From positions 744,001-808,000 of the forward strand of contig NZ_CP162495.1 of the NCBI RefSeq assembly GCF_040939125.1: a DNA stretch of 64,000 nucleotides. The letters are read 5' to 3'. Origin of the DNA: Clostridium sp. BJN0013 (GTDB lineage Bacteria > Bacillota > Clostridia > Clostridiales > Clostridiaceae). Made by a program: the position numbers and the translations under genes. The notes under the pieces were generated by a model, which worked only from the letters and a program-made list of their open reading frames with translations, had not been told where the DNA came from and made no database searches. This document shows, in pieces, positions 25,590 through 63,800 of the stretch (the stretch's first letter is position 1; every line of letters begins with the position of its first letter).

Positions 25590-26585
25590 ATTAAAAGACG
25601 TGTTTTAGAGATAGATGTAATCAGGGCAGTTTCTATAGTGGCAGTAATAGTATTACATGTTTCTGCTACTGTACTTTATAGATGTACACCTTATTCTACT
25701 ACTTATGATATAACGTTTTTATTGAATCAGCTCTCAAGATTTTCTGTTCCTGCCTTTATAGTTGTTTCAGGAATGGGATTGACTATAAATTATAAAAAGA
25801 ATTCCAGCTATTCAGAGTTTATAGTTAAAAGATTTTTAAAAATTGTACCTCAGTATGTATTGTGGTGTATTCTGTATATATTAATTATAACTAAAAATTA
25901 TAATATATATAGTGATTTAAATGATATGGTATATGGAAATGTATTTTATCATTTTTATTTTGTACCTCTAATTATAGAATTTTATATTATATTTCCCTTT
26001 ATATATAAATTTATGGGGAAAAGATGGTGGCTTTTTTTGAGCTTTCTTATTACCTCTTTTTTTCTTATATATTTTTATTATTTCAAAGCGCAAGCACCGG
26101 AGCAGTGGTTCTGGAATAAGAAAAATTTATTTTACTGGCTTTTTTATTTTTCTTTAGGAGGATACATTGGAAAAAATATTGACAGCATTTCTGAAAAATT
26201 AAATAAATATAGACCTGTAATTTTAATTATGTTTTTCTTATCAATATTTATAGTACTTTATAATTTCATACCAGGCAATCAATATAATAAGGATATAGAC
26301 TGCATTACTACATTTCAACGTCCGGCAGTACTTGTATATTCTACGCTATTTATATTATTTATATTTAGTTTCAGGTGGAAAAAAGGATTTTTTATGGATA
26401 TAATAAAATATATATCTAATACTTCTTATGATATTTATTTATCCCAATCGGGAATATTGTATTTATATGGACAATATTATACGGTGAAATATGGACATAT
26501 GGGAAATCTGCATTTTGCTTTAAGTGCCTTTATAGTCACATTTTTTGGTGCTATGATTTTAAATAGGGTAAAAAAGTTATTATAA
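25590..26585 (+). CDS. Acyltransferase family 3 protein with an apparent ATT start
   Basis: About 331 residues and ten membrane segments. The N-terminus IKRRVLEIDVIRAVSIVAVI then VLHV has the typical R-A-x(5)-V-x-x-x-H arrangement of acyltransferase 3; FSVPAFIVVSGMGL is the second motif. The first standard start codon in frame is a GTG at 25638, which would remove the conserved segment. AAGGTGGGG ends 4 bp before tandem ATT codons (25587, 25590), so I place the start at ATT 25590. It is followed by the structured RNA element at 26590. Confidence 0.83.
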   Translation: MKRRVLEIDVIRAVSIVAVIVLHVSATVLYRCTPYSTTYDITFLLNQLSRFSVPAFIVVSGMGLTINYKKNSSYSEFIVKRFLKIVPQYVLWCILYILIITKNYNIYSDLNDMVYGNVFYHFYFVPLIIEFYIIFPFIYKFMGKRWWLFLSFLITSFFLIYFYYFKAQAPEQWFWNKKNLFYWLFYFSLGGYIGKNIDSISEKLNKYRPVILIMFFLSIFIVLYNFIPGNQYNKDIDCITTFQRPAVLVYSTLFILFIFSFRWKKGFFMDIIKYISNTSYDIYLSQSGILYLYGQYYTVKYGHMGNLHFALSAFIVTFFGAMILNRVKKLL

Positions 26586-26589
26586 AGTG

Positions 26590-26786
26590 ATTTTTAGGTT
26601 CAGATGGAGTTTACTATATATAAATGCTTTTTCCGTCGAACCTTATTAACAGTATTCTTAGTGTCTCTAGCACTTAGAATACGTTATCCTTTAGGGGAAG
26701 AACCTGTTCAGGCGCGTAGCAGTGCTTGTCTTCCACTTTGAAGACGATGGGGGGAGGTATTAGCTAATTCTAGCGTTCGGATAAAA
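26590..26786 (+). ncRNA. Structured RNA element, copy A
   Basis: About 197 nt, closely matching 34221-34416 along its whole length. Helices: GGTTC with GAACC (with GATGGA opposite TCCGTC inside), an AGTG/CACT stem-loop flanked by ATTCT/AGAAT, and CTTCCA opposite TGGGGG. A GTTATCC near the middle can pair with GGATAA(A) at the 3' end. The loop sequence AATGCT of the first hairpin can pair with AGCGTT near the 3' end. The same helices are kept in copy B by different bases. There is no open frame across it. I do not recognise an Rfam family. Confidence 0.7.
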
Positions 26787-26826
26787 TATCGGATGAAATA
26801 TTCTATAGGGTGAAAGTAGGTGAATA

Positions 26827-32311: not shown

Positions 32312-32418
32312 ATATTAAAAACATGTATTTTATTTTGATAAATGTAAAATATTTTATCTGAAAACTGAAATTGGCTAATACCCCAGTTTCTTCAAAGTAG
32401 GGGAATAGTACTGCAATT

Positions 32419-32446
32419 GTAAATTGTAAATTGTGAATCGTGAATT
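32419..32446 (+). repeat. Heptanucleotide tandem repeat in the spoIIA leader
   Basis: Units GTAAATT (twice), GTGAATC and GTGAATT follow head to tail. It lies downstream of the predicted sigma-H promoter and would be transcribed with the operon. Confidence 0.75.
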
Positions 32447-32509
32447 GCAAAATATTATAAGAGGGGGGGTAAGAAGGTCTGACTCGGACTATGCAATATT
32501 TTGCATATG

Positions 32510-34197: not shown

Positions 34198-34220
34198 TCT
34201 GCAAAATGTAGTAAATCAAA

Positions 34221-34416
34221 TGATTCTAAGGTTCAGGTGGAGTTTGTTATAGAGAAATGCTTTTCTCCATATGAACCTTATTAACAGTATTCTTAGTGTC
34301 TTTAGCACTTAGAATACGTTATCCTTTAGGGGAAGAACTTATCCAGGTGTGTAGCAGTGTTTATCTCCCACTTTGAAGAAGATGGGAGTATTAATAATGG
34401 TAGCATTCGGATAAAA
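34221..34416 (+). ncRNA. Structured RNA element, copy B
   Basis: About 196 nt, closely matching 26590-26786. Copy B keeps each helix with other bases: TGGAG opposite CTCCA (copy A: GATGGA/TCCGTC) and CTCCCA opposite TGGGAG (copy A: CTTCCA/TGGGGG). The loop AATGCT can pair with AGCATT near the 3' end (copy A: AGCGTT), which predicts a pseudoknot. It sits downstream of sigF and upstream of a convergent terminator. No frame crosses it. The surrounding 316-bp gap holds only this element and the terminator at 34456. Confidence 0.7.
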
Positions 34417-49656: not shown

Positions 49657-49669
49657 ACATTCATATCTA

Positions 49670-49730
49670 GTGGTTCAGAGGTTCAGGTAGAATTTACTCA
49701 CAAGGTATGCTTTTCTCTACCTAAACTGTT
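49670..49730 (+). repeat. Truncated copy C of the structured RNA element
   Basis: The first ~55 nt of copies A and B are recognisable: AGGTTCAGGTAGA, the TATGCTTTTCTC loop and TCTACCT closing the hairpin. The helix is kept (AGGTAGA with TCTACCT), but the outer GGTTC/GAACC pairing and everything 3' of it are lost. It lies just before scfA. Confidence 0.55.
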
Positions 49731-49798
49731 AAACTTTATTTTATATACAGTTTATGTTATAATCAATCAGATAACTTAATTACATGGAGGAGCTTAAT

Positions 49799-63619: not shown

Positions 63620-63800
63620 ATTAATTTCCTACTGTGTACGGGGAATGAGTTAATGTTGGCTGAACATTTTATAAAGGGGAATCCAACTCTTTTTGTGGAA
63701 TGAAACTCAATTTATTTTGGGCACAAGAAGCAAAAAGGAGATGCCCACCTGTTAAGAGCGGGTTCAATATAACTTATTCTGCGGCATGGTGGGGTTTTAT
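63620..63800 (+). ncRNA. ssrS: 6S RNA candidate
   Basis: The ends pair well: CCTACTGTG (63628-63636) with CATGGTGGG (63785-63793), then GAATGAGTTA (63643-63652) with TAACTTATTC (63770-63779), separated by an internal loop containing TGCGG on the 3' side. The position right after aspS matches 6S-1 RNA of Bacillus (aspS-bsrA-yrvM, from memory). Inner hairpins include AATGTT/AACATT and GGGCA/TGCCC. The inner part looks more branched than textbook 6S, so another structured RNA is possible. Ends are approximate. Confidence 0.5.

Follow-up and report, generated by a model that had tools for sequence, protein, structure and literature searches.

An intergenic structured repeat of Clostridium sp. BJN0013 belongs to a real and widespread family of mobile structured repeats, apparently undescribed so far: our search of the open-licence PMC literature found no description of this clostridial family. 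The element is probably non-autonomous, high-copy mobile DNA of the IS200/IS605 type (PATE-like). Its base unit of ~150 nt has fixed points at which 51-nt modules may be present or absent. Module B stands between two palindromes (P1 and P3); module C occupies the P3 tip, as one unit or as tandem units.

Copies in the window and spread of the family

The window is the 64,000-nt stretch of contig NZ_CP162495.1 (positions 744,001 to 808,000) that was analysed; G000 denotes the source genome (4.10 Mb) and other G numbers denote compared genomes. As the initial annotation had reported, the window holds two near-complete copies, A and B, on the same strand and 7,635 bp apart (91% identity over a 114-nt common stretch). 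The third copy that it had noted, at 49665 (29 bits), is truncated, with the first hairpin arm recognisable. Two things had escaped that first reading: the remnant of P3 at 32353–32449 (minus strand) and the high copy number in the genome. Remnants related to those at 49665 and 32353 were found at corresponding places in G011 and G004. Copy A does lie between two same-strand ORFs (315 and 217 aa); their names, acyltransferase and phosphosugar transferase, are those given by the earlier reader. Coordinates are collected in Table 1.

Table 1. Copies and remnants in the window (window positions) and copies with a readable empty site in a relative (genome positions)
Feature	Position	Strand	Basis or remark
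Copy A, with module B	26582..26785	+	R1 model, 188.1 bits, and sequence
Layout of copy A	AT 26582-26583; element 26584-26780; ATAAA 26781-26785	+	ATAAA taken as target-derived
P1 of copy A	26596..26643	+	putative right-end palindrome in the IS200/IS605 reading; limits approximate (model alignment); covaries
Module B of copy A, 51 nt	26646..26696	+	pattern match G000:770646-770689, 1 mismatch
P3 of copy A	26705..26785	+	putative left-end palindrome, including pairing with target-derived ATAA; limits approximate (model alignment); covaries
Copy B, with module B	34215..34415	+	R1 model, 228.5 bits
Module B of copy B, 51 nt	34281..34331	+	pattern match G000:778281-778324, 0 mismatches
Old truncated copy	49665..49740	+	recognisable in the P1 arm only; 29.2 bits
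Old P3-end remnant	32353..32449	-	adjoins simple AT-rich repeats; 25.6 bits
Copies with empty site ATAAA	G000:724722, G000:954321, G011:3106032, G011:3081299		
Copies with empty site ATAAA, G003	3777749, 3787147, 3812970, 3914377		
Copy with variant empty site	G000:737071		ATAAT
Copy with variant empty site	G011:3269980		ATCAA
Copy with variant empty site	G006:101135		GTAAA
Copy with variant empty site	G006:44330		ATTTAAA
Copy with variant empty site	G000:706294		rearranged copy

Two other features of the window were recorded. A 40-nt AT-rich repeat of type AATTGTGAATTGTGAA is present in four places (13209, 31114, 32411 and 41648); one such repeat adjoins the 32353 remnant, and similar stretches stand there in relatives. 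A 6S RNA (RF00013) lies at 63623–63799 on the plus strand (68.8 bits, gathering score 46.4).

Used as a BLAST query against G000, copy A gave at least 40 matches. Covariance model R1, built from alignment A1 (38 of the first 40 BLAST matches; the rearranged L036 and L039 were left out), gave at least 150 matches in the same genome; copy numbers per genome are lower bounds throughout. The case considered in the initial annotation, that genome searches would show only the window's copies and no covariation, is contradicted by these numbers and by the covariation of the wider family. The first 47 R1 matches in G000 are 191–206 nt long and most others listed are ~150 nt; a further class of ~250 nt was seen in relatives. 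Nine matches fall within 48 kb (G000:1041954–1090000), far denser than elsewhere and perhaps an island.

R1 matched 23 of 59 relatives. With R2, a model of the short class, matches were obtained in 79 of 225 genomes at the level of the order, representing 23 of 56 genera, and in 29 of 398 from a sample of the phylum. C. ljungdahlii and C. ragsdalei are examples of acetogens that carry the element. The earlier impression that the repeat belongs to no known Rfam family (release 15) was borne out: it had no match at gathering in the window, and looser searches gave nothing relevant for copy A at E 10 or for six variant loci at E 1. Carriage by phages or plasmids was considered and rejected: viral contigs contained no exact match to the core, and blastn against plasmids and phages gave no match.

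Insertion sites and conserved fold

Copy B is absent behind the same gene, presumably sigF-like, in 12 other genomes of the genus (420 nt read; among the 13 genomes G000 alone is filled); this gene is 94% identical in G011 and G004, which also lack the element there. Neither of these two genomes has copy A at its corresponding position. The junctions of both window copies are not letter-clean, and a 12-nt near-duplication behind copy A (CGGATAAAATAT CGGATGAAATAT; window ~26774–26798) blurs its empty-site comparison.

Among 45 element entries examined, 13 had a readable empty site in a relative; the other 32 showed no synteny in the stretches compared, shared copies or messy junctions. The empty site is exactly ATAAA in eight of the 13 cases, and the filled allele at these eight sites reads AT-(CAAG or AAACAG)...CGG-ATAAA. 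Read on the antisense strand, the empty/filled pairs place the element immediately 3′ of TTTAT. No duplication is obvious, although these pairs would look alike with a 2-bp AT duplication and with none. Across 70 aligned copies the 5′ AT is present in all 70, each base of the 3′ ATAAA is present in 97–100% and the wider flanks are merely AT-rich, statistics that are partly circular as the copies were cut with these ends in view. Filled copies nearly always end in ATAAA, also at sites for which the relative shows a different pentamer; purely target-preserving insertion would not account for this unless mutations followed.

The copies occupy intergenic DNA. Long ORFs, which make up 82% of the stretch, contain 237 of the 3,515 bases belonging to elements (ORFs in this count are long open frames, not annotation). 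Neighbouring genes point both ways: upstream, 11 share the orientation of the element and 12 oppose it; downstream, the numbers are 9 and 14.

A hand-typed consensus folds at −73.3 kcal/mol compared with a shuffle mean of −46.9 (z −6.1; none of 200 shuffles as good). P1 lies near the 5′ end and P3 at the 3′ end; both are conserved, and so is a pairing around P1. Within the element, TTATCC is paired to GGATAA, in which ATAA derives from the target, and a segment close to the end is matched by an internal one. By inspection the ends, CAAG..CGG, are not inverted repeats.

The pairing is conserved, as shown only by the wider family; the signal is weaker within the genus. In alignment A3, a hand-picked set of 31 diverse copies, changes on both sides were seen at 26 of 48 pairs, with 156 such cells against 51.8 in shuffles, and 91.6% of cells were paired, compared with 81.2% in shuffles and 35.5–49.3% in slid controls. 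Within the genus, default RNAalifold yielded one pair of 36 changed on both sides. With the hand structure there were nine of 63, a number reached by 86 of 500 shuffles; none of the 500 equalled its covariation score or paired percentage. Copies A and B alone do not carry the argument that had been built on them: differences affect 22 of the 126 columns that are paired and 15 of the 80 that are not, hence not mainly the paired positions, and nine of 20 changed pairs are non-standard in one copy, so that kept pairing does not follow from this comparison.

Exchange of the 51-nt modules

Short copies read CCTTA-GAAGAAC at the site beside P1 where long copies hold the 51 nt of module B. Module C is a further 51 nt found in the ~250-nt class. 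By inspection, module B is a near palindrome and module C a hairpin with an 11-nt tail.

Presence of module B is independent of the arms of the element. Module statistics were computed from 38 B-bearing and 31 B-less copies among the at least 150 in G000, with B distances taken from 35 of the 38 (three with indels were left out). Divergence between copies is 2.5% for module B; for the arms it is 17.2% in copies with module B and 15.3% in those without it. The two arms, P1 and P3, are co-inherited (Mantel r 0.35, p 0.001), and presence of module B is unrelated to either arm (p 0.62 and 0.97). The nearest neighbour by arms belonged to the same B class in 26 of 69 cases, with 34.4 expected. In a truncated copy common to three species, module B is present in G000 and G011 and missing from G004, whose allele is also without ~10 nt of P1.

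The cleanest case for module C is the copy at G003:3700987 and its counterpart in G006. The flanks are 98% identical, the 51-nt module is present in G003 only and the elements otherwise differ only by a single-base length change in the P1 loop; this single case fits gain or loss of the module. Near-matches to the 40-nt C core number 59 in G003, 59 in G005, 49 in G006 and one in G010; there is none in G000, G004 or G011, and G004 has a more diverged module C (L149). Two loci of G005 (L302 and L308) represent a third subfamily, with a wholly different P1 arm and the same C core. In G003, loci L312 and L324 have other hairpins inserted in element copies, so the module repertoire seems larger than B and C.

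Modules B and C may themselves be mobile 51-bp DNA, which would enter or leave one fixed position of another mobile element precisely and would have spread, nearly unchanged, through subfamilies with unlike arms and across species. We put this forward tentatively, as a possibility that may well prove wrong; to our knowledge, mobile modules of 51 bp would rank among the smallest mobile units known. An even chance is given to the alternative that the modules have no mobility of their own and are exchanged among copies through homologous recombination of the usual kind or through gene conversion, tandem C arising by slippage. Such an exchange agrees with the words beside the module edges, which are conserved in most copies, with the location of all 44 near-matches to module B inside elements and with tandem C pairs at 51-nt spacing (six in G003, four in G006). 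It agrees less well with the lack, by inspection, of a direct repeat at the module edges and with a C core that is identical across three subfamilies with unlike P1 arms, the 11-nt tail being variable.

The G003/G006 case bears on both sides of this question. Among 39 distinct contexts compared, the longest uninterrupted 5′ identity of the best donors is four bases, which argues against recombination. A subfamily-2 context (L299) has two differences over 29 bases at one flank and 13 matching bases at the other, and a short conversion tract is therefore possible; on this ground we dropped the claim that the case leaves no room for gene conversion.

Nature of the element and related systems

In the reading that we prefer, the element would move in trans as a hairpin-bearing single strand and would insert directly 3′ of TTTAT on the strand opposite copy A (ATAAA in the orientation of copy A). 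P3 would serve as the left-end and P1 as the right-end palindrome. The ends of IS608 combine a guide with a cleavage site by base pairing; the TTATCC/GGATAA and the end-proximal/internal pairings of the element are likened to this and may act like the guide/cleavage-site pairing of IS200/IS605 ends. Readings as a serine-recombinase substrate (2-bp AT core) or as group-I-intron-like were ranked behind IS200/IS605 because of the ATAAA target.

The initial annotation had left the choice between a functional RNA and a mobile structured repeat. Copy number, empty sites and family-wide covariation speak for the mobile half of that statement; the other half fares badly, given the placement between genes in mixed orientation, the absence of both window copies from close relatives and within-genus G-U departures about as frequent as A-C ones. 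The rival view is that of a non-coding RNA class with a function, acting in trans or regulating in cis, whose copies are scattered over the host genome, whose fold is selected as RNA and whose core is module B. It could draw on the strong covariation of the diverse set and on a module B that is nearly invariant and shows compensatory stem changes between subfamilies (seen in subfamily 2 and in G025). The majority G-U pairs, five in A1 and four in A2 (31 short G000 copies and three from relatives; L125 and L137, of odd lengths, were left out), also favour the sense strand. Function of a sense-strand RNA predicts an excess of G-U over A-C departures at Watson–Crick-majority pairs; the excess is absent within the genus (82:90 in A1, 68:60 in A2) and mild in the diverse set, where 54:33 leans to the sense strand. 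In favour of the mobile reading, the antisense strand of copy B, as single-stranded DNA, folds with z −5.6. Elements missing at orthologous places and the lack of an Rfam family also count against an RNA class, as does the frequency of copies without module B, which among the matches listed equals that of copies with it. We dropped the idea of a functional RNA core because B-less copies exist and module B is independent of the arms. A regulatory role is unlikely, as the copies are intergenic with no orientation preference relative to genes, and the RNA class as a whole appears quite improbable.

As non-autonomous mobile DNA, the element would depend on an enzyme acting in trans. G000 has 15 matches to PF01797 (Y1). 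Nine are IS200 copies nearly identical to one another; the others are fragments or belong to a second type. No Y1 transposase with element-like ends was found among the IS200 copies examined, which counts against the IS200/IS605 reading, although an element mobilised in trans would not need to have one; an IS200 parent was rejected, since the ends of these copies are unlike those of the element. Y1 matches are present in 10 of 13 genomes of the genus, with zero in G003, G004 and G008; G003 and G004 are nevertheless both involved in insertion polymorphism. R2 matches lie next to a broken Y1 fragment and next to a TnpB, one case each, seemingly as separate insertions. Origin from a TnpB guide RNA was also rejected: the element lies ~340 nt behind one TnpB domain match, and a second TnpB stretch, 98% identical, has other sequence at that place and lacks the element, which makes the proximity look fortuitous. 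The TnpB-bearing stretches L254 and L255 (G000:532295 and 1093119) are 98% identical to each other; to the eye, the sequence before their TnpB ORF resembles what we take to be a group I intron (IStron).

A REP/RAYT-type system, in which a domesticated REP-associated tyrosine transposase moves the element, is a further candidate, and RAYT-like proteins do exist in six genomes (G005, G006, G007, G009, G010 and G012). They are 182–201 aa long where read, and their best family, NF047646, scores below its cut-off. In G007 an element copy with module B overlaps the end of a RAYT-like ORF (L334, 1468–2227). This overlap has to be set against an element within 1.5 kb of just one of the six RAYT-like loci searched, a result on which a RAYT parent was rejected, and against the absence of any RAYT-like gene among the Y1 matches of the copy-rich G000, G003, G004 and G011. 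The element, at 150–250 nt, is also unlike the REP/REPIN palindromes of 20–40 bp with their RAYT gene (PMC3733652), and G000 has no RAYT-like match. We consider such a system unlikely, though not as improbable as an RNA class.

If the IS200/IS605-type reading is right, clostridia and related orders carry mobile hairpins of the single-strand type, with at least 150 copies in a genome, and offer a natural data set on target choice by pairing of element ends. It also raises the question of what moves the element in genomes without any Y1 match. Exchange of nested modules, the part likely to surprise a specialist, could be tested by comparison of close strains; if modules B and C are mobile, they would make up a two-level parasite system in clostridia.

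Elements of the IS200/IS605 type are described in PMC4227781 as having subterminal palindromes and no terminal inverted repeats, and IStrons of this type as inserting downstream of TTGAT, ATTAT or TTTAT without duplication. The clostridial repeat resembles these IStrons and IS elements in its T-rich pentamer target and subterminal palindromes and may share the lack of a duplication; unlike them, it has no ORF and no group I intron (PMC4227781). Two other short repeats can be compared by description. Pneumococcal BOX elements are likewise high-copy, structured and intergenic, with an optional or multiple middle module, for which they are the closest parallel, but are described with terminal inverted repeats and target duplications (PMC3049150); the clostridial repeat has no inverted repeats at its ends, by inspection, and no clear duplication. 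The bcr1 repeat is also short and structured, with traits of a mobile element, and is described as specific to the Bacillus cereus group (PMC2267715).

The closest precedent is provided by the PATEs of Haloquadratum walsbyi with inserted SMR-A small mobile repeats (PMC3119063). Both PATEs and the clostridial element are transposase-free, with near-terminal palindromes, a short targeting sequence and no terminal inverted repeats; PATEs cause no target duplication, and the clostridial element may cause none either. In both, many copies contain a second short repeat that is more conserved than its host; SMR-A inserts in PATE palindromes, and here module C sits in the P3 palindrome and module B beside P1. 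PATEs are archaeal and their ends match resident IS605-type transposons, whereas for the clostridial element no parent was found. SMR-A is ~110 bp long with prominent terminal inverted repeats, in contrast to modules B and C, which are 51 nt and sometimes in tandem (PMC3119063).
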